Numbered from the stretch's first letter, positions 9,154 through 19,190 are shown. The stretch: 64,000 nt of DNA from Paenibacillus sp. 32O-W (GCF_007679495.1 NZ_VEGP01000020.1:1-64000), one strand, 5' to 3'. The notes: a model not told the origin generated them from the sequence alone. A program made the numbers and translations.

Positions 9154-10533
9154 TTAAAGTAATGATTCCAGCCTCTGGCACAAAGAATTCTCATCCTCCA
9201 TGTTAGACCAAAACCATTTCAGCTCATTACGCAACGTTGCCAGCTCATCCAAGCTCAGGTTTAATTCGGACACCAGACGAAACGAGGGAATGATCTCCCG
9301 GTACATATGAAAGCGGGAAGGCCGGGGCAGCGACTCCTTGCCTGTCCATTCAGCCGCCCGTTTGTGGGCCGGCAAGCTTAACGTATTTCTGCGAATCCTT
9401 AGCTGCGCGGAATAGGAGAGCAAATAATCGACCAGTACCTTGGCCGCTTCCTTCTGCTTGGAATGACGGTTAACCGCCAGTCCGATCACCACCAGCAAAG
9501 ACCTAGCCTCGTTCATATAGGGCAGCGGAGCGACATCGAAGTCAAAATTGGCATGCCGCATATGGTTGAGGCTTAAATAAGTGGTCATGATCATCGACAC
9601 CTTGCCGGAAATAAACAATTGCTCCGCATCCGCATCGCTTTCGGACAGGAATGTCGGGAAAATCCCCTGGTGATAGATCAGGTTGCGGCAGTGAACCATG
9701 CTTTCCTGAAGCTTCGTATGGCGGATCGCATAACGCCCCTCTTCATTACGCTCGAATTTCTCCCCGCTCTGCAGCAGAAACACCGGCCACCGGTTATCCG
9801 ACAGAAGATGAAAGTAGAAGCCGTACCTGTCCTTGCCGTCGCTCAGCTTGACGGCCGCCTGCATGACATCATCCCAAGTCCAGCTGCTGTCAGGCTCAAG
9901 CACCTGCTTCTCTCGAAAATGCCTGCGATTATAGCACAGAATTACAGGCGTAAAAAGAAACGGCCGGATATAACTGACTCCATCCTGTGTGAATAGCCGC
10001 GATAAAAAAGGATAGATTTCCGAATCCTCCGCTTCGAGCGGCTCCAGATGGGATAGCTTCTCCTTTTCACAAATCCGCTGATAATCGGTATGGTTTAAGG
10101 TAAGAACGTCCAGCACATCATTGCCCATATAAACCATGCTCAAATCATCATATTCACCATAGGTCAACGGAACAGGCCGGACCCGGATATGCGGATGCTC
10201 CCTGTGGAAATCATCCAACAATCCGTGCAGATCGGCTTCCCGAACGACGGAAGGGTAGTATCCGAATGTAAGGGTAATTCTATCCCCTGCATAAGGCTGA
10301 GTAACCCGGTTGCCGATCCTGGGCACTTTCTCAACGAGTCCTTCGGCAACGAGAAGCTCCAGACCCTGACGGACCGAGTTTTTACTCAGTTGAAATTCGG
10401 AAGCCAGCGCTCTTTCGGAGGGCAAATACTGGCCGATGGGAAGCTTGCCGGATACAATATCGCTGCGTAACGTGTTGATCATAACATCCAGCCGTGCACG
10501 AAATGTCGTGCGGCTTGGCTTGCTGCTCGTCAT
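9154..10533 (-). CDS. GntR winged helix fused to family-1 solute-binding domain (regulator A)
   Basis: About 459 residues from the ATG at 10533, which has AGGAAGG just upstream; an in-frame start at 10656 is possible but gives an unconserved leader. Residues about 12-78 are a GntR winged helix ('RSDIVSGKLPIGQYLPSERA', 'SKNSVRQGLELLVAEGLV'). From about 90 the protein is a sugar ABC-type solute-binding domain ('ITLTFGYYPSVVREADLHGL', 'LFTPVILCYNRRHF', 'RWPVFLLQSGEKF', 'VAPLPYMNEARSLLVVIGLA'). There is no signal peptide, so the binding domain must act inside the cell as ligand sensor. It is a paralogue of the gene at 13988-15346; both flank the aminotransferase-amidohydrolase operon. The ligand is unknown; a sugar or a substrate of that operon is likely. 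Confidence 0.85.
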   Translation of the reverse strand: MTSSKPSRTTFRARLDVMINTLRSDIVSGKLPIGQYLPSERALASEFQLSKNSVRQGLELLVAEGLVEKVPRIGNRVTQPYAGDRITLTFGYYPSVVREADLHGLLDDFHREHPHIRVRPVPLTYGEYDDLSMVYMGNDVLDVLTLNHTDYQRICEKEKLSHLEPLEAEDSEIYPFLSRLFTQDGVSYIRPFLFTPVILCYNRRHFREKQVLEPDSSWTWDDVMQAAVKLSDGKDRYGFYFHLLSDNRWPVFLLQSGEKFERNEEGRYAIRHTKLQESMVHCRNLIYHQGIFPTFLSESDADAEQLFISGKVSMIMTTYLSLNHMRHANFDFDVAPLPYMNEARSLLVVIGLAVNRHSKQKEAAKVLVDYLLSYSAQLRIRRNTLSLPAHKRAAEWTGKESLPRPSRFHMYREIIPSFRLVSELNLSLDELATLRNELKWFWSNMEDENSLCQRLESLL

Positions 10534-10652
10534 AACCTTCCTAACCACCCGTCTATACTCATGTCCTGTATTTGAAAGAATCATATCCTCTGGTTCATAT
10601 CCTGTCAAGATAGATAAGACCCAAGCCTCGTCCCGAAGCAAGGGGGGCCGAA

Positions 10653-10745
10653 GCAAGGATAAACGGCTATCGCCGTCCTTTGGACAGGCGCATTTACCGA
10701 TGAAATATAGGACAGGTGAAACCTATACTTTCCTATATTTTAAAA
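10653..10745. repeat. REP-like hairpin repeat, copy A
   Basis: Begins CAAGGATAAACGGCTATCGC, contains the hairpins ACGGC-TATC-GCCGT and GTCC-TTT-GGAC, and ends with CCTATACTTTCCTATATTTT. Related copies lie at 21683-21773, 35897-36122 (reverse orientation, interrupted) and 40305-40346 (front part only). This copy sits between the operon end and regulator A, where it could act as a transcript end or spacer. Confidence 0.7.
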
Positions 10746-10799
10746 ACATAAAATCCGGCCAGACAGCCGGCTTTCAACTTTGCTATTCCTTATTCTATT

Positions 10800-11631
10800 T
10801 CAACCTACCGGGCAATCGTTCATCCCAAGAAACCGCAGAGCGTTGTCTCTACATAGGGCCAGACGATCCGCTTCGCTGATATTAGCCGCCGCTAGCTGAA
10901 GTGCCGTCGCTCCCATTTCCTGCAGAGGAGCGCATGAGCTATAAGCGAATGCCCCCGCTCCCCCCCCGTTGACACAGTTGGGCGATAACCGCGAGCGGGC
11001 CGTTGATATACCACAGATCGAAGATAACGCGATCCAACCGCCAATCGGAGGTCCTGAATCTCATAACGGCATCCCACTCATAATCGCGGAGACCGCTGAT
11101 TAACAGCGGGTGGCCTCCGCATGTTCCTATCAACTCGGCAATTGCATGCACGGGAACGGTTTCCGCCGGGTAGCGCGGGTGCTGCAGCCGCTCGTCCTGC
11201 AGACGGGCGATGACCGAGAGCGGAAGCCCCCGCTCACGCAAAGCGGCGATGAGCTCCGCGGCGTGTTGGCCATTGATCGCATACCCGTGATAGCCCGGGA
11301 GCAGCCGGACGCCCCTCGCCCCATTCCGCTCGGCGTAATCGAGCTCCGCTTCCCAGCCTGGCTCGGCCGGATTCAGCACGACGAACGGCCACAGCCGCTC
11401 ATCGGCAGCCGCTTGCGCGAGCAAAGCCTCGTTGCCGGAACGGGTATCATGGCCGAAGACGGAGGCCAGATGGCTGACGCACAGCCCGACAAGTCCAAGT
11501 CGGTCAGCCATCATCATTAAGTCTTCTGCCGAAGCCTGCGACCAGTAGCGAAACGGCCATTGCCCAATGAAGGCCGTGACGTCTACCCCGCGACCATTGA
11601 CGAAGGATTCGAAAGACAAGCCATCTCTCAT
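10800..11631 (-). pseudogene. Amidohydrolase-2-type protein, frameshifted in a C8 run
   Basis: Third gene of the operon; its ATG (11631-11629) shares one base with the TAA of the preceding gene (TAATG), so it is translationally coupled. As read, it stops at 10939 after 230 residues. Removing one base from the run of eight C at 10960-10967 restores the frame through 'GAFAYSSCAPLQEMGATALQ' and 'ISEADRLALCRDNALRFLG' to a stop at 10800, giving about 276 residues, the usual family length. The missing end is the characteristic last strand and helix of the TIM barrel. The N-terminal metal motif H-x-H is absent ('VDVTAFIGQWPFR'), so its chemistry is uncertain. The frameshift may be real decay, phase variation or a sequencing error. 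Confidence 0.8.
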
Positions 11632-12374
11632 TATCCAGCCACCTCCTCAAGCAATCTGCTCATGTTCCCTTTGGTAATCTGCTTCACTGCCTCCGGCGAT
11701 AAACCTGCGCAGAGCACCTTGCCGAGATTGCTGGCGAGACAGGCGCCCGGAAGATCCGAGCCGAAAATGACGCGATCCGCTCCGAGCCGTTCGACCGCTA
11801 AGGCGACCTCATGCGCGCCGATCGGAGTGCCGGACGTATCCGTACTTACATTAGGGTATGGAGCTATAACATTCATCGCGCTTTCCACCTGTCCTCCCAT
11901 GTGGGCCATGATGATACGGGCCTCCGGATAGCGGCGCGCGAGATCCGCCACATGACCGGCCGTCGATTCGTACGGAAGCTGTCCGACCGCTTTGCGCCAG
12001 GAATGAACAAGAATGGGCGCGCGATAGGCAATGGCCTGCTCGATGAAGGGAAAGGCCAACGGATCGTTGCACAGCGTCGCGACCCATAGCTTCAGACCGA
12101 TCATTCCCTGATCCTCGATGCGGCGGCGAAAATCCGCAAGCGCTTTCTCCCCGTGCCGCGGGTTCACATAGCAGTACCCGGCCACCCGGTCCGGGTAGCG
12201 GCGGGTGACCGCGACCATATCGTCATTCGCTAGCCGCACCTGTTCCCATGTAGGATAGTGTTCATAATTGCAGATTGAGCTGCCGACGAAGAGCCGGACG
12301 CCAAGCCGGTCCCCTTCCTCCAGTGTGGCCGGATGAAGATCGGAGCCATCCAGGTGAATATGCGCGTCGATCAT
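11631..12374 (-). CDS. Amidohydrolase-2 family TIM-barrel hydrolase
   Basis: About 247 residues starting 'MIDAHIHLDGSDLHP' with the metal-binding H-x-H right at the start. The C-terminal part has 'VIFGSDLPGACLASN' with the barrel Asp typical of PF04909-type hydrolases and decarboxylases, and ends 'ITKGNMSRLLEEVAG'. The ATG at 12374 overlaps the TGA of the aminotransferase (ATGA), showing tight translational coupling; an upstream in-frame start at 12407 would lie inside that gene and is less likely. Substrate unknown; members hydrolyse or decarboxylate lactones, amides or aromatic acids. In the operon it follows an aminotransferase, suggesting that it works on a keto or aldehyde product. Confidence 0.85.
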   Translation of the reverse strand: MIDAHIHLDGSDLHPATLEEGDRLGVRLFVGSSICNYEHYPTWEQVRLANDDMVAVTRRYPDRVAGYCYVNPRHGEKALADFRRRIEDQGMIGLKLWVATLCNDPLAFPFIEQAIAYRAPILVHSWRKAVGQLPYESTAGHVADLARRYPEARIIMAHMGGQVESAMNVIAPYPNVSTDTSGTPIGAHEVALAVERLGADRVIFGSDLPGACLASNLGKVLCAGLSPEAVKQITKGNMSRLLEEVAG

Positions 12375-13723
12375 CGGCTTTCCCTCCACCGGTTCAATTC
12401 CTCGCACGCCTTTTCCAGTCTCGTCAGGGCTTCATCGATATCCGGCTCGCCATGGCTGAAATTGACATACGAAATGTTGTAGAGCGACACCCCGTGGCGA
12501 TAAGCCAGCCGGAAGAACCGTTCCCGGATTCCTTCTTTCGGCCTCCCATCCGCCTTCCCTTCCATGTCGGGACGATTGACGAATGCCGGACAAGGCCAGA
12601 AGCCTTGTACAGAGAGTGGAATATCCCGTTGCTCAAAGAGAGCGTTCAGCCCCTTCCACATACTCTCCCCGCGCTTCCATAAGCCGGTAACAACGTCTTG
12701 CTCGACATAAGTGTTAATGCACGCTTTGGCAGCAGCTAACGATAGAGTTTCTCCGCCGAAGGTGGAGGTGATAATCACGCCGCCGCGGTCACAGCACCCC
12801 ATGACCTCCTTCCGCCCGGCTATGGCCGATAACGGCATTCCGTTCGCTATTCCCTTGCTGAACACGGCCAGATCGGGGACGACGCCGAAATACTCCTGAA
12901 CCCCGCCTATAGCGATTCGGAACCCGGTCACGATTTCATCGAAAATAAGAAGCGCACCATGCTTCCCGGCCAGCTCGCGAAGTGCCGGGTAATAGGCTGG
13001 CCCTTCCTGCATGGCCGCATAATCCGCGGCCACGACAACAGCGGCTATCTGTCCGCCGTAGTCGGCGAACAGCCGCTCCATGGCCGGAATGTCGTTCCAT
13101 GCGGCTGCATGATGGAGCGAGCTGAGCTCCCGCGGAACTCCCGGCACTTGGGCAGCCGCTCGTCCCGGCAGCTGGGAACCGCCGGCCGCCAGACTGTTCA
13201 GCCAGCCGTTATAACCGACCTGGACGATATGGTCCCTCCCGGTGTAATGGCGGGCTATGCGAATCGCGGCAGCCACGGCCTCCCCGCCGGTCTTCAGGAA
13301 GCGGACCTGATCGGCGCACGGGATAAGCTCACACAGCATTTCCGCCACTTCAGCTTCCAAAGGATGCGGATGGCCGAACGAAATCCCGCTGTCTAGCTGT
13401 CTGCGCAATGCTTCATCCACAGCCGGGAATCGATAGCCGAGTGTAACCGGCCCCAAACCATTGCGGAAGTCGATATATTCCTTGCCATCCGCATCCCATA
13501 CCCTGCAGCCGTCTCCTCTCACGATAACTCCCGGTTCTTCGGGCAGAAGCTCCGGAGCCTTGGAGCAAGTGCTTGATCCCCAAGGAATGACCTTGTTTAA
13601 GCGGTTGTTCCATTGCTGGCTCGTCGTCCCGTTCCGGATGGAATCCCCCTCCTCATCGGTTGAGCCATGGTTTCGTACATCTCTAACGGTTTCCGTTCCT
13701 CTCATTTTCCTCTCAGCCGTCAC
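12371..13723 (-). CDS. Class-III PLP aminotransferase, glutamate-1-semialdehyde-aminomutase-like
   Basis: First gene of the three-gene operon, up to 450 residues. The class-III fold is shown by 'VWDADGKEYIDFRNGLGPV' near the start, 'FLKTGGEAVAAAIRIARHYT', the PLP Asp in 'LLIFDEIVTGFR' and the Schiff-base Lys in 'FSKGIANGMPLSAI'. The closest known group by motif is HemL-like enzymes, but a true HemL would normally sit with heme genes; this one sits with two amidohydrolases, so a catabolic aminotransferase acting on an amino sugar, amino acid or amine is more likely. The start is uncertain: GTG at 13723 is given, ATG at 13705 is equally possible, and the first 45 residues look unconserved. Confidence 0.88.
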   Translation of the reverse strand: MTAERKMRGTETVRDVRNHGSTDEEGDSIRNGTTSQQWNNRLNKVIPWGSSTCSKAPELLPEEPGVIVRGDGCRVWDADGKEYIDFRNGLGPVTLGYRFPAVDEALRRQLDSGISFGHPHPLEAEVAEMLCELIPCADQVRFLKTGGEAVAAAIRIARHYTGRDHIVQVGYNGWLNSLAAGGSQLPGRAAAQVPGVPRELSSLHHAAAWNDIPAMERLFADYGGQIAAVVVAADYAAMQEGPAYYPALRELAGKHGALLIFDEIVTGFRIAIGGVQEYFGVVPDLAVFSKGIANGMPLSAIAGRKEVMGCCDRGGVIITSTFGGETLSLAAAKACINTYVEQDVVTGLWKRGESMWKGLNALFEQRDIPLSVQGFWPCPAFVNRPDMEGKADGRPKEGIRERFFRLAYRHGVSLYNISYVNFSHGEPDIDEALTRLEKACEELNRWRESR

Positions 13724-13883
13724 GTCCCTCTACTCCCCTCTTATAATCCCCCCGCTTCTCTCTCCTCCAACCCATTCAGCAGCTTTTCTCTTTATTGTTT
13801 TCGCGTTATCCATTCTCTTTTCGGTGGAACAATGATACAATTAATGGTTGTTTAAGCGATTTAATCTGCGAAGCTTGCCGTAC

Positions 13884-13919
13884 TGTTATTAGTCCTAAGA
13901 ACGATATCCTTAGGTAACA
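13884..13919. promoter_or_regulatory. Palindrome in the divergent gap, candidate operator of regulator B
   Basis: CCTAAG (13894-13899) and CTTAGG (13909-13914) form an inverted repeat, and outer TGTTA (13884-13888) and TAACA (13915-13919) add a second, offset pair. The site lies 70-105 bp before the regulator B start and 160-200 bp before the aminotransferase start. GntR-family proteins bind palindromes of this size. The assignment is inference from position and symmetry. Confidence 0.5.
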
Positions 13920-13987
13920 ACAATTTAAAACATGTACCATACATATTCCATTATACTTGAATACTACGAGGATGGGAAGGGATCATT

Positions 13988-15346
13988 TTGCGCAGGGAAA
14001 ACGAATTTCTGTACATGAGGCTGTACCATACATTGAAAGAACAGATCATGACCGGCTTGGTCAAGCCCGGTGATTATCTGCTGCCGGAGAACGAACTGTG
14101 CGAATTTTACAAAATGAGCCGAAATTCGGTACGCAAAGCTCTGGAGCAGCTTCAGAATGACGGACTTGTGATCAAACGGCCGGGTCTCGGCACGATGGTC
14201 CCCGCCGATCTCGTCATCTCGCCATCAGACAGGAATGTACTGCGAATTCTGACTCCATACCCGGCTCACTTCGTCGATAACGGGCTGCCCGCCATCATCG
14301 ACGCATTCTCCAAGAGATATCCCCATGTAAATGTCAAGGTGCTGAGCCTGCCGGCCTTGAACTTCTGGAAATCGTTCCAATCGAGCTCCGAAATGGGGCT
14401 CAGTCCCGACATCGTCATGGTTTCGGATTTGCAGCTTGCCGACAGCGACGTCCTTGCTCCCTTTTCCGATGTGACGACCGCTTTGGAAGATCGCCTGCAC
14501 ACCATTTACCCGAAATTGCTAAACCGGTTTCGTCATGAAGGCCAATTGATCGCGGCGCCGTTAACCTTCACGCCGGTATTTTTGGCATACAACCCACAGC
14601 TTTTTGCGAATGATAACATTCCCCGGCCGACAGAAGCCTGGACGCTGGACGATTTTCTCAATGCCGCCGAGGGATTGACTCATGTCAGCAACGGGATGCC
14701 CGTTCGCTACGGCTTTTCCGTCTACCCCTATATTTCCCGCTGGCCGGTGCTTGCCCTGCAGAACGGCGGAGCCAAGGAGGGGGGCGGCTTGAAGGAGAAC
14801 AGCCTGCGGACAGCCCTGACGCTGCTGCAGGACATGCTGTACCGGCGGCGCATCGCCACAATGTACCCCGAGTCTGACGCGAATCCTTTCCTGTACGAGA
14901 AAGCAGCCATGACGCTAACGACAACATTCGAAATGTCCGGATGGAAGGACCGGAGCCTCATCTTTACGCCTGAAGTCGCTCCGCTGCCGTTCGGCCCGTT
15001 GAAGGCTACGCTGCTGCAGGCCAATGCGCTGATGATACCTGCCGAGGCCAGCTCCCCCGAGCTGGCCCGCGAATTCATTCGAGTGGCCCTGGATCCCGGC
15101 GTACAGCAGGCCATGTATGAGCGCTCGTCCTTCCTATCGGTTATCCGGGAAGTCAATCAAGCGGCATGTACCGAAAGCTACCTGCGCGCGCTTAATATTG
15201 AGGACCCGTTAATGAACAACAACTACTTTATTCATGATTTGTTCAACGAGGCCGAGATCGCTGAACTCAAATCCGAGTTTGCTTTGTTCTGGCTCGGGCT
15301 CGAGTCCGCAGAAGCGGCGGCCACAGCTTGTGCCCAAATCCGTTAG
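13988..15346 (+). CDS. GntR winged helix fused to family-1 solute-binding domain (regulator B)
   Basis: 452 residues from a TTG start with GAAGGG upstream. Residues about 8-70 form the GntR winged helix ('LKEQIMTGLVKPGDYLLPEN', 'SRNSVRKALEQLQNDGLVIK'), then a solute-binding fold from about 78: 'VLRILTPYPAHFVDNGLPAI', 'LTFTPVFLAYNPQLF', 'YISRWPVLALQNGG', 'VAPLPFGPLKATLLQANALM'. No signal peptide and no lipobox. It shares local blocks with regulator A (TFTPV.LAYN/LFTPVILCYN, RWPV.ALQ/RWPVFLLQ, C-terminal 'FALFWLGLES'/'LKWFWSNMED'), so the two are paralogues. Divergent from the aminotransferase operon across a palindrome, it is the best candidate for the operon's regulator. A self-complementary terminator follows at 15355. 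Confidence 0.87.
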   Translation: MRRENEFLYMRLYHTLKEQIMTGLVKPGDYLLPENELCEFYKMSRNSVRKALEQLQNDGLVIKRPGLGTMVPADLVISPSDRNVLRILTPYPAHFVDNGLPAIIDAFSKRYPHVNVKVLSLPALNFWKSFQSSSEMGLSPDIVMVSDLQLADSDVLAPFSDVTTALEDRLHTIYPKLLNRFRHEGQLIAAPLTFTPVFLAYNPQLFANDNIPRPTEAWTLDDFLNAAEGLTHVSNGMPVRYGFSVYPYISRWPVLALQNGGAKEGGGLKENSLRTALTLLQDMLYRRRIATMYPESDANPFLYEKAAMTLTTTFEMSGWKDRSLIFTPEVAPLPFGPLKATLLQANALMIPAEASSPELAREFIRVALDPGVQQAMYERSSFLSVIREVNQAACTESYLRALNIEDPLMNNNYFIHDLFNEAEIAELKSEFALFWLGLESAEAAATACAQIR

Positions 15347-15526: not shown

Positions 15527-16804
15527 TTAAACCTTATAGGCTTTCATCGCTTTGCGGACTTCCTTCAAGGAAGGGCGTTTGCCGTACATCAGAACGCCTA
15601 CTCTGTAAATCTTCGCCGACAGCCATCCGAAGAAACCGATGGATACAATCAGTATGACTATGGACAGCCCAACCTCCCACAGGGCCGGATCACCGACCCC
15701 TATACGCAGGAACATAATCATCGGCGTAAAGAAAGGAATATAGGACGTCACGGTGACGAAGGTGCTGTCCGGGCTGCTTAAGCCAAACATGCCGATATAA
15801 AATCCGGCCAACAGAATAAACGTAAGCGGGGTGACCGCCTGACCGAGATCCTCCGTCCGGCTGACCAGAGAACCGACTGCCGCAAACAGGAACGCATAGA
15901 GCAGAAACCCTGCCAGATAGAAGAAGAAAAAGCCTGCGATCAACGGCAGCGGAATTTGACTCAACTGAATCCCCATGGAGCTTAGAATCTCTATATTATG
16001 CGGAAGCAGTAGATTAATGGCCGCCACTACAGCGAAGATGGCGATTTGTGCCAGCCCGAGCAGCAGCATCCCGATCACTTTCCCGAACATTTGCGTCATG
16101 GGCGAAATGCTGGAAATCAGGATTTCCATTACCCGAGAGCTCTTCTCCGCCGTCACTTCGGTGGATACCAGGTTGCCGTACATCATGACGGACATGAACA
16201 GCAGGAATAGGAGGACATAGACCAACCCTACAGCAATCGCCCTTTCCCCGGGGTCCTTCTCTGCCATTCCCCCTTCTTGAGGACTTATCTCCATCGTTTT
16301 AAGCTCTACCGGTGTGTTCAGCCGGACCAGCTGCTCCTGACTCAATCCAAGCTCTTTAACGACCGCTTCTGTCTTAACGGACTGCATAACCGTCGTCAGA
16401 ATCGACTGTTCACCCGTTCCCAGGCTGCCATCGGAATGGTAGATCGCCTGAACTAATGTTCCTCTCTCTTCCACCAGCTCCAGGTAACCTGATATTTCTC
16501 CGCTGTCAATCTTGCCCTTCGCTTGCTGCAGATTGGCTTCCGGAGATCCGGCATCCGGCAGCAGCACGATCTTCAGCTCTCCATCTTCCTGTTGATTGAG
16601 AGACGCAGCTATGTCCTGAGAGTAACGGCTTCCCTCCGCTATCCCGACCGCTTTCACCTCATTGGAGGAAAATAACGAAATAATGTAAGGCAAATTAATG
16701 ACTATACTTATGATTACGGCAAAAATGATGGTGGTTACTAAAGACGTTTTTGATAAAAACCGGTTTCTGAATGTAAACCGGACAACGCTCATCATATTAC
16801 TCAT
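15527..16804 (-). CDS. ABC-2 type permease, NatB-like
   Basis: 425 residues. N-terminal TM helix ('TSLVTTIIFAVIISIVINLP'), then a large extracytoplasmic domain (about 45-185), then five or six TM helices to the C-terminus, ending in a basic tail ('YGKRPSLKEVRKAMKAYKV'). This is the layout of NatB/ABC-2 sodium or drug export permeases. Its start overlaps the end of the ATPase gene by 8 bases, so the pair is translationally coupled. It is the last gene of the cluster and is followed by a strong terminator. The substrate is unknown; sodium or a toxic compound are the usual options for NatAB-type exporters. Confidence 0.88.
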   Translation of the reverse strand: MSNMMSVVRFTFRNRFLSKTSLVTTIIFAVIISIVINLPYIISLFSSNEVKAVGIAEGSRYSQDIAASLNQQEDGELKIVLLPDAGSPEANLQQAKGKIDSGEISGYLELVEERGTLVQAIYHSDGSLGTGEQSILTTVMQSVKTEAVVKELGLSQEQLVRLNTPVELKTMEISPQEGGMAEKDPGERAIAVGLVYVLLFLLFMSVMMYGNLVSTEVTAEKSSRVMEILISSISPMTQMFGKVIGMLLLGLAQIAIFAVVAAINLLLPHNIEILSSMGIQLSQIPLPLIAGFFFFYLAGFLLYAFLFAAVGSLVSRTEDLGQAVTPLTFILLAGFYIGMFGLSSPDSTFVTVTSYIPFFTPMIMFLRIGVGDPALWEVGLSIVILIVSIGFFGWLSAKIYRVGVLMYGKRPSLKEVRKAMKAYKV

Positions 16805-17699
16805 GTCCGCTACCTACTTTCTTAATGAAGATTTCGTTCAAGGTAGGCTCCAACACCTGGAATCTGGAAACATTGGTCTGCTCCATGGCCGTTTTCAAAA
16901 TATGCTGTGCGCATTCGATCTTGGAAATACGAATCTCCACACCGTTCTCCCGTGGCAGAACCGCCTTCACGCCGTCAATTTTCTCCAGGCCGGTAACCTT
17001 AGAGTCCGTCTCCAAAATAATGCGTTCTTTAGGAAACGAGCTCTTGATCTCCTTCAGATTGCCTTTCAGCACCACATTCGATTTATGAAGGATGCATATA
17101 TTTTGGCAGAGCTCCTCCACGTGATCCATCCGGTGGCTGGAGAAGAGGATCGTCTTGCCTTGGTCCCTTAGCTCCAACACCGTCTTTTTGAGCAATTCCA
17201 CGTTAACCGGGTCCAATCCGCTGAAAGCTTCATCCAGAATCAGAATATCCGGATTATGAATCACCGAGGCTATAAACTGGATTTTCTGCTGGTTTCCTTT
17301 GGACAGCTCTTCCACCTTTTTATTGTAATATTCCGGAACTCCGAATTTATCGAGCCATTCCTTCAAATGTTTATCCGCGGTTTTGCGGGACACTCCCCGT
17401 AGTTCGGCCAGATAAACGATTTGTTCGCTCACTTTGATCTTCGGATACAGCCCCCGCTCCTCCGGCAAATAGCCCATCGTCTTCCGCAAGCTCTCGTTAT
17501 AAGGCTGTCCCTTCCACAGGATTCTGCCGCTATCCGGGACAATGAGCCCCAAGACCATCCGCATCGTCGTCGTCTTCCCGGCACCATTACCGCCCAGGAG
17601 CCCGAAGATTTCCCCTTCCTTGACCTCCAGACTGACTCCATTGACAGCCGTATGCTCTCCGAACCGCTTGATGATTTCGTGTACTTCTAATCCTGCCAT
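16797..17699 (-). CDS. ABC transporter ATPase, NatA-like
   Basis: 300 residues. Walker A 'GLLGGNGAGKTTTMRMVLGL' near residue 32-51, signature 'VEELSKGNQQKIQFIASVIH' near 128-147, Walker B 'DILILDEAFSGLDP' near 151-164, then the switch His in 'ILFSSHRMDHVEELC'. The C-terminal 70 residues are the usual DrrA/NatA-type extension. It pairs with the permease downstream (8-base overlap) and its ATG overlaps the stop of the upstream ATPase (TAATG), so three exporter genes are coupled. It energises export by the permease. Confidence 0.92.
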   Translation of the reverse strand: MAGLEVHEIIKRFGEHTAVNGVSLEVKEGEIFGLLGGNGAGKTTTMRMVLGLIVPDSGRILWKGQPYNESLRKTMGYLPEERGLYPKIKVSEQIVYLAELRGVSRKTADKHLKEWLDKFGVPEYYNKKVEELSKGNQQKIQFIASVIHNPDILILDEAFSGLDPVNVELLKKTVLELRDQGKTILFSSHRMDHVEELCQNICILHKSNVVLKGNLKEIKSSFPKERIILETDSKVTGLEKIDGVKAVLPRENGVEIRISKIECAQHILKTAMEQTNVSRFQVLEPTLNEIFIKKVGSGHE

Positions 17700-18604
17700 T
17701 ATCCAGCTCCCCTTTCCTTTCCTGCAGATACCCCGTGTTTATTCATTAAATGATAAAAAATTTCTTCCAGCTCAAGCGACTCTGTTTTAATAATCGGGTT
17801 TCCTTCCTCGGCCAGAGCCTGTCTCGTTTCCTCGAAGGAACTGGTTACGATTCGAACAGGCCCCGAACCCGAGCTTTCCATTACGCCGGGAAACTGTTTC
17901 GAACGGTCGGAAGAGCGCTCCACCCATACCGCCTTCCACTCATCCAGCAAGACATCCTTCTCATACATGCCTAACTGCTGCCCGTAACATATAAAAATAA
18001 CATAGTCGGCCAGCTTCTTAACTTCGTCCATGATATGCGTAGCCATAAGTACCGATTTACTGCCGCTTTCCATAAAGCGGTGAATGTCCTCCACCATCGC
18101 CCGGGAAGCAAATGGATCCAGCCCGGAGGAAGGTTCATCCAGAAGCAGCAGATCCGGGTCATGGGCCATGGCCAGGGCAATGGACAATTTTCTCCGTACC
18201 CCCTTGGACATCCCTTTGAAACGGAGCTTGGGATCCAAGGAATAAAGCTGCATCAATTCCTGGAATCGGTCCTTCTGCCAGTTTGGATACCAATGCGAGT
18301 AGAAGCGGACAGCATCCTTAACTGTTCTCCAGCTATCGTCCCATTCTGAAAGCTCAGGAACATATCCTGTCCTCCGCTTGATCTCCACCCCATTCTCGGG
18401 GTAGGAACGGCCGAATAGACGGATCGAGCCTTCGTCGGGATAAGCCAGGCTCATCAGCATCCGGAAGAGCGTGCTCTTGCCGGAGCCGTTCGGTCCTACT
18501 ACGGCGGTTATATAGCCCGGCTCCAGGCTGAAATTCAACGGGCCGAGAACAAACCGATTATCGTAATGCTTGCGTACATCTGAAACGGTCAATACCGGTT
18601 CCAT
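17699..18604 (-). CDS. ABC transporter ATPase, YtrB-like
   Basis: About 301 residues from the ATG at 18604, which follows AAAGGGGAGAG; a longer frame to 18664 has no better start. Walker A 'AVVGPNGSGKSTLFRMLM', a divergent signature 'MSKGVRRKLSIALAMAH', Walker B 'DLLLLDEPSSGLDP', switch His in 'MATHIMDEVKKLADY'. The short C-terminal domain differs from the second ATPase. Encoded right after a YtrA-type GntR regulator, it resembles the ytr (acetoin/cell-wall stress) type of operon; its permease could be the membrane protein at 19191-19916. Confidence 0.9.
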   Translation of the reverse strand: MEPVLTVSDVRKHYDNRFVLGPLNFSLEPGYITAVVGPNGSGKSTLFRMLMSLAYPDEGSIRLFGRSYPENGVEIKRRTGYVPELSEWDDSWRTVKDAVRFYSHWYPNWQKDRFQELMQLYSLDPKLRFKGMSKGVRRKLSIALAMAHDPDLLLLDEPSSGLDPFASRAMVEDIHRFMESGSKSVLMATHIMDEVKKLADYVIFICYGQQLGMYEKDVLLDEWKAVWVERSSDRSKQFPGVMESSGSGPVRIVTSSFEETRQALAEEGNPIIKTESLELEEIFYHLMNKHGVSAGKERGAG

Positions 18605-18764
18605 AGTCTCTCCCCTTTTTTCTTTAAAATTCGGTACACGCTTGCTCTCCAACCCTTCATGCAAAAAGGCCCATCATGTTCTAAGTCGGCCTCATGGACA
18701 CGGCTATGCTTTCTAGATTTTGAAGCGCTTCGGTTATTCATAGTCCTACAAGACGCAAGCGCCA

Positions 18765-19157
18765 TTAATTCGGTTCTGTCTCCTGCAGCAGCTCGTCCAG
18801 AATGGATCTCATTTCATCGGAGGAGCACTGTACCTGTCTTCCTGTCTCTACTGCTTGACGGAAAGCTTCATAGACTGCCACATTACGGAACCGTTCCCGT
18901 TCCTCTTCGCTCACTCTGGCCACAAATGTGCCGGTGCCTTGTCTTGTATAAAGCAATCCCTCCTGCTCCAAATCCTGATACACTCTGCGGATGGTAATGA
19001 CACTGCAGGACAGATCCGCTGCGAATTCCCGAATAGAGGGCAGTAGCATGCCTTCCGGCAAATGTCTGCTTAGAATCATGGCTCTCAACTGCTCCTTGAT
19101 CTGATGATATAGAGGCTTACCGCTATCATTAGTAATTGTGACCGGAATGCGCATCAT
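18765..19157 (-). CDS. GntR-family regulator, YtrA type
   Basis: About 130 residues, the short form typical of YtrA: winged helix 'PLYHQIKEQLRAMILSRHLP', 'LLPSIREFAADLSCSVITIR', 'YQDLEQEGLLYTRQGTGTFV', then only a small helical tail (about 85-130) and no ligand-binding domain. GGAGGTGGGG precedes two consecutive ATG codons (19157 and 19154); either may be used. It lies between a membrane protein gene and the ATPase genes, all on one strand. The palindrome at 19977-20000 upstream of the cluster is a likely operator, giving repression of the exporter operon by its own regulator. Confidence 0.9.
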   Translation of the reverse strand: MMRIPVTITNDSGKPLYHQIKEQLRAMILSRHLPEGMLLPSIREFAADLSCSVITIRRVYQDLEQEGLLYTRQGTGTFVARVSEEERERFRNVAVYEAFRQAVETGRQVQCSSDEMRSILDELLQETEPN

Positions 19158-19190
19158 CCCCACCTCCACTCCATTCTCTTGCCGCACAAT

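Follow-up and report, generated by a model that had tools for sequence, protein, structure and literature searches.

A GntR winged helix joined to a complete solute-binding domain as a putative ligand-released repressor of an aminotransferase-amidohydrolase operon in Paenibacillus sp. 32O-W

A proposed local repressor

A five-gene locus of Paenibacillus sp. 32O-W, in which an aminotransferase-amidohydrolase operon (AT, AH1 and AH2) is flanked by the genes of two GntR-solute-binding chimeras designated chB and chA, has been analysed within a 64,000-nucleotide stretch of DNA, hereafter the window. The reading that we regard as rather probable is that chB is a ligand-released local repressor of itself and of the operon and that chA is an independent regulator. 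According to this model, chB would be a cytoplasmic one-component regulator that arose when a GntR repressor took over a whole sugar-type ABC importer receptor as its effector domain. In the ligand-free state, the winged helices of chB would occupy the positions 13928-13951. The bound site would overlap the expected start of AT-AH1-AH2 and lie just 5' of chB, thereby keeping the expression of both the operon and chB low. When the cleft between the two lobes is then filled, either by an intermediate of the pathway or by an imported compound, the solute-binding domain would close, the DNA-binding domains would move and the operator would be freed. We infer that chB dimerises, and its ligand is probably the substrate or an intermediate of the operon. 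chA is transcribed from a promoter of its own, probably uses a different operator and would most likely regulate itself and other genes, and it would stand at the operon end only within a small lineage.

Organisation of the locus and the enzyme genes

The three enzyme genes are transcribed leftwards and neighbouring open reading frames overlap by 1-4 bases. The stop-start overlaps that had been described previously, ATGA between AT and AH1 (12371-12374) and TAATG between AH1 and AH2 (near 11631), match the coordinates of the reading frames. Pfam also agrees with the initial annotation that a class-III aminotransferase and two amidohydrolase-type enzymes are encoded between the chimeras. AT (12371-13723, minus strand) is a class-III PLP aminotransferase, whose true start likely lies slightly inside the open reading frame and whose nearest relative in the PDB is glutamate-1-semialdehyde (GSA) aminomutase, followed by D-phenylglycine aminotransferase. 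AH1 (11631-12374, minus strand) matches Amidohydro_2 and carries the HxH motif DAHIHLDG, downstream of which a further His and an Asp resemble metal ligands; its relatives in the PDB are uncharacterised amidohydrolases. AH2 (10800-11631, minus strand) is Amidohydro_2-like and lacks the HxH motif (DVTAFIGQW). As read, its frame is lost at a run of eight C residues (10960-10967 on the plus strand) and the homologous C-terminus resumes in another frame to position 10800. The AH2 homologues of Paenibacillus sp. J2TS4, P. eucommiae and P. contaminans have an unbroken frame. The HxH metal motif is absent from every AH2-group homologue examined, which suggests that AH2 may accompany AH1 as a partner without catalytic activity.

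All NCBIfam matches of the enzymes fall far under the cut-offs and do not point to a particular substrate, and neither do the PDB relatives given above. The enzyme types and the partner genes found at related loci suggest that the ligand of chB is a nitrogen-containing small molecule. It had also been claimed that neither a permease nor an ATPase is encoded nearby. No importer genes were seen around the locus in the translations of the window, but two ABC ATPase-like genes of an exporter-type cluster are located at 16797-18664, starting less than 1.5 kb past the end of chB. The region adjoining chB (15527-19187) contains ABC exporter-type genes and a small GntR gene, and this neighbourhood is kept in J2TS4.

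Domain architecture and predicted structure of the chimeras

chB (13988-15346, plus strand) has 452 amino acids and consists of a GntR winged helix (residues 8-71) and a complete CUT1-type solute-binding domain (residues ~80-452). chA (9154-10533, minus strand; 459 amino acids) is a distant paralogue of the same architecture. As had been proposed, a GntR winged helix is joined to a whole solute-binding domain in both proteins: PF00392 is matched with 58.6 bits in chB and 52.9 bits in chA (cut-off 27), and the SBP_bac_1/SBP_bac_8 matches likewise exceed the curated Pfam cut-offs. None of the described GntR effector domains (FCD, UTRA, aminotransferase-like or LacI-like) was found by Pfam, and SBP families alone exceed the cut-off in the C-terminal part. 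Moreover, there is no Pfam match to the SgrR_N helix-turn-helix domain or to SBP_bac_5 in either protein up to an E-value of 1, and no LacI/GalR-type (PBP type I) effector was found, the effector being SBP_bac_1/8 with a MalE-like fold. Judged by these domain assignments, chB and chA are placed as a separate architecture within the GntR superfamily. The earlier statement that a signal peptide is absent was borne out, because no transmembrane-like or signal-like segment is present in either protein.

The AlphaFold model of chB, which was computed from 44 sequences, has a pLDDT of 90.8 and a pTM of 0.86. Its residues 81-452 match sugar-binding receptors in the PDB, with a Z-score of 33.6 to 5f7v and 32-33 to several others, and the matches include MalE3, a trehalose/maltose receptor and AbnE. 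The predicted two-lobe MalE-like fold spans the whole domain (residues ~80-452), as in CUT1-type solute-binding proteins, and the nearest PDB structure to the winged helix is the repressor YvoA. The chA model is weak (pLDDT 71.6), probably because only six sequences were available for it. In a profile alignment to MalE, the FTPV..YN block of chB aligns with the strand bearing E111 and T311-T312..E315 aligns with the stretch bearing W230. F194, Y201, N202 and T311-T312..E315 are kept across the chB group and the binding pocket is likely retained. Many chimeras keep a calcium-type loop, DTDGDGxxD, near the position of chB residue 235, as in exported receptors, though they are cytoplasmic; the loop is missing from the chB of the window.

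Both shared blocks reported for the two proteins, FTPV..YN and RWPV..LQ, are indeed present, except that the leading T of TFTPV occurs in chB only. However, the description of chB and chA as twins does not hold, as they are 24% identical and belong to different deep clades on opposite sides of the family tree. The automatic start of chA at 10656 was corrected to the ATG at 10533 because a strong promoter conserved in J2TS4 sits between both positions. The chA orthologue of J2TS4 is 82% identical.

A family of GntR-solute-binding chimeras

With a chimera profile, full chimeras score at least 282 bits and plain solute-binding proteins at most 65 bits, and chB and chA are full-length members. Owing to this gap, the chimeras look like a single family rather than the outcome of local receptors having been fused again and again. 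Seven chimeras are encoded in this genome, P. oceani 37 and P. eucommiae 12, and none were found in other genomes of the same family. Among 398 genomes of the Bacillota, full-length chimeras are present only in this genome and in two others of its order (G044 and G051), by which a Bacillota-wide distribution is ruled out. With a chB-type query and short peptide patterns, which distant members escape, the genomes of 84,980 species yielded relatives in Paenibacillus, Cohnella, Paenactinomyces, Thermoactinomyces and Lihuaxuella. The family was found here only among Paenibacillaceae-like and Thermoactinomycete genomes.

A set of 106 distinct chimeras was used for counting neighbours and signals. 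None of them (0/106) has a hydrophobic, export-signal-like or lipoprotein-anchor-like segment in the first ~78 residues. Sugar-type ABC permease genes are located near 46 of the 106, and the other neighbours encode Gfo/Idh dehydrogenases, DegT aminotransferases, sugar-isomerase-like TIM barrels and ceramidase-like proteins. The condition named at the outset as refuting the initial annotation, that homologues always stand beside sugar ABC transporters and not beside this operon, is thus half borne out: permeases are frequent neighbours, but the chB clade tracks the operon with or without them. A protein of ~570 amino acids with no Pfam match (L126:15348-17060 and homologues) is encoded at 26 of the chimera loci. 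The genome of strain 32O-W has a second pair of A-type and B-type chimeras (G000:C224:46982-54621) with the same flanking layout and a counterpart in J2TS4, and the cluster between this pair contains Gfo/Idh-, DegT-, ceramidase- and TIM-barrel-like genes. That one lineage has two pairs of this kind may be more than chance.

No published account of the GntR-SBP architecture was found in the literature, the open-access coverage of which is incomplete, and the family is apparently unstudied. To this extent, the initial annotation of the system as undescribed is consistent with our search. With somewhat less assurance than for chB itself, we lean towards an undescribed group of one-component regulators in the Paenibacillaceae. 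It would have arisen when a GntR winged helix acquired a complete receptor of a sugar importer, and would since have diversified to dozens of paralogues in a genome, with clade-specific operators matching clade-specific catabolic operons.

Linkage of chB to the operon

In the chB clade (n = 11; SH-aLRT 96), AT and/or AH1 are adjacent to the chimera gene in 11 of 11 cases, and a further operon-linked chimera (L130) is the neighbour of this clade on the tree. A chB-type gene accompanies the aminotransferase-amidohydrolase operon at nine further loci in other species, and at two additional loci the amidohydrolase is present and the aminotransferase is absent. These loci bear out the earlier view of regulators with a solute-binding effector domain as far as the tie of chB to the operon is concerned. 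When operon linkage is mapped on the tree, three changes are needed, compared with 13.4 for shuffled labels. The gene order is variable: chB and the operon point away from each other in the window, J2TS4, P. eucommiae and Cohnella silvisoli, whereas a convergent arrangement is found in P. hemerocallicola, P. mesophilus, P. oceani and P. contaminans. Moreover, some linked loci contain additional genes for a carbon-nitrogen hydrolase, a lone receptor, an M20 peptidase, RidA, a creatininase or a permease, and a permease is absent near many of them, the window included. Since the linkage outlasts the rearrangement of the gene order, it points to a functional tie, and chB is probably the cognate regulator of AT-AH1-AH2. 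The divergence of chB is also correlated with that of AT (Mantel p 0.012), which species history could also produce.

Besides this genome, J2TS4, the nearest syntenic relative, is the sole one with chA at the operon, in conserved order. At one other linked locus (L135), a chA of another subclade is located ~8 kb from the operon, and there is no chA near the remaining linked loci. In five related genomes, the genes listed around an AT-AH1(-AH2) block include no chimera, and a LysR-like gene lies beside most of these blocks. Thus, the operon does not require chB, which is one among several ways of controlling it. Four AT-AH1-AH2-like blocks for which the listed neighbours likewise include no chimera (L079, L080, L082 and L083) adjoin a LysR-like gene and, as seen by eye, MtnE-, MtnU- and methylglyoxal synthase-like genes.

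A conserved DNA site upstream of chB

A comparison of the regions 5' of chB across loci revealed a phylogenetic footprint at 13928-13951 (plus strand), which we consider as the putative chB operator (AAACATGTACCATACATATTCCAT). The footprint reads ACATGTACCATACATAT.CCAT and consists of two phased 11-bp half-sites, to which a left arm is added in most loci (GTACATGTACC). The complete site is unique in the window, and with up to three mismatches allowed it has no second copy in the 5.76 Mb genome; a larger set of chB targets in this strain was therefore rejected. Of the 12 operon-linked chB genes, 8 have the core TAYMTGTACC in their upstream region, compared with 19 of 1713 control upstream regions (p 5.5e-13); this p-value is optimistic because the motif was derived from the clade in which it was counted, but other genes are a fair standard of comparison. 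The core is absent from the upstream regions of all 91 other chimeras. The copy in the window lacks the first two bases, and two loci (L130 and L135) are operon-linked yet devoid of the motif.

A -10 box facing the operon is located just past the site in the window, in J2TS4 (L099), P. eucommiae and Cohnella silvisoli (L106 and L108 among these loci) and also in L100, with P. plantarum, which lacks AT, among the species. In the convergent loci L101, L102, L103 and L105, a -10 box facing chB is found at similar distances just before the site. The predicted sigma-A promoter of the AT operon (TTCCCA-17-TATAAT, 13950-13978, minus strand), with similar geometry in L099, L106, L108 and L100, would place the transcription start within the putative operator; all these promoters are consensus matches, the number of which in the region is not above chance. 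Repression of both the operon and chB would agree with a single site that covers the start regions of the two, and the overlap argues for repression as the direction of control.

Other elements upstream of chB were also considered. AACAATGATACAATT (13828-13842) also occurs 5' of chB in J2TS4, as compared by eye, and is either the -10 region of chB or a second half-site (reverse TTGTATCAT). The palindrome at 13884-13919, which had been put forward as a site for regulator binding, does exist and folds into a strong RNA hairpin (-17 kcal/mol, z -5.4). However, its sequence is not conserved in J2TS4, where the hairpin is weak, and it was rejected as the operator in favour of the conserved site at 13928-13951. 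A known riboswitch or leader RNA was dismissed as well because there is no Rfam match. A de novo motif search recovered ATACNNGTAT/TACATGTA dyads, which after redundancy reduction are enriched 5' of chimeras across the family (21/95 vs 40/672, p 2e-6).

The chA promoter (TTGACA-17-TATGAT, 10580-10608, minus strand) is conserved in J2TS4 and contains a GGATATGA direct repeat and ACCAGA between the hexamers. The embedded ACCAGA is related to ACCAGATA-like sites, which occur in 5 of 36 A-type promoters compared with 4 of 1713 controls (p 3e-7 before correction). As they rest on five promoters, these sites are a suggestive A-type motif. A single operator common to A-type and B-type chimeras was ruled out, since the motifs differ.

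Alternative explanations

chB could act on the same operator as a ligand-dependent activator or a dual regulator, which we consider unlikely. SgrR, the best-known regulator with a solute-binding effector, is reported to control the expression of other genes besides repressing itself (PMC13060122), and in the window the sole good promoter match at the site faces the operon. At the compared loci, however, the -10 box precedes the site, which covers or follows the expected start and is not found upstream of the -35 box. Activators usually bind upstream of -35. Slightly less probable is joint control of the operon by chA and chB via two ligands or in opposition, the arrangement that had been suggested originally. 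Both genes flank the operon here and in J2TS4, and the second A-type/B-type pair flanks another catabolic cluster that is matched in J2TS4. This proposal is weakened by the lack of chA at the other linked loci save L135, by the separate chA promoter and by the difference between the A-type motif and the B-type site.

It is about equally doubtful that the solute-binding domain is no longer a ligand sensor and serves as a module for dimerisation or protein contacts, for instance with a local ABC permease at the membrane. Receptor domains can persist for contacts, and almost half of the chimeras have sugar-type permease genes nearby. Against this stand the full two-lobe fold that is confidently predicted for chB, the conservation of its residues in the regions of MalE E111 and W230 and the lack of permease genes near many operon-linked loci, including the present one.

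Significance and comparison with known systems

It is recognised as difficult to engineer ligand-controlled DNA binding by fusing a periplasmic receptor with a DNA-binding domain (PMC6079105). If the proposed model is true, the family would offer many natural and evolvable solutions for converting a receptor into a switch, with varied sensors and with operators usable for reporters. It would also open uncharacterised catabolic clusters in Paenibacillus and its relatives, because each receptor domain should bind a substrate or an intermediate of the adjacent genes. The present locus, with one regulator, one site and three enzyme genes, is directly testable.

The nearest solved winged helix to that of chB belongs to the HutC-type regulator YvoA/NagR, the effector of which is a UTRA domain, whereas the chimeras have a solute-binding domain instead. 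GntR proteins usually use GT...AC-type operators. The GntR repressor NanR is reported to bind GGTATA repeats (PMC8012715), which resemble the reverse of the chB half-sites; this is a resemblance only. Periplasmic receptors have been fused to repressor DNA-binding domains in engineered biosensors that act as ligand switches (PMC6079105). These are laboratory constructs, in contrast to the large evolved family of chimeras. SgrR/DsvR of E. coli and V. cholerae consist of a DNA-binding domain and a cytoplasmic solute-binding effector, and SgrR is negatively autoregulated (PMC13060122). Like the chimeras, they are cytoplasmic, have an N-terminal DNA-binding domain followed by a whole solute-binding domain and act on carbon metabolism. 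However, SgrR has its own helix-turn-helix type and SBP_bac_5, whereas the chimeras combine a GntR winged helix with CUT1-type SBP_bac_1/8 in up to 37 copies per genome. AraR of B. subtilis is a regulator of carbon catabolism with a GntR winged helix and a sensor related to sugar-binding proteins (PMC4218819). This sensor is of the LacI/GalR type (PBP type I), whereas that of the chimeras is of the MalE-like type II and has complete receptor length. The new elements compared with SgrR and AraR are the multiplicity and the matched operators. As judged by the domain tests, the chimera family is outside both SgrR and AraR and combines the ideas of both with a different class of receptor.
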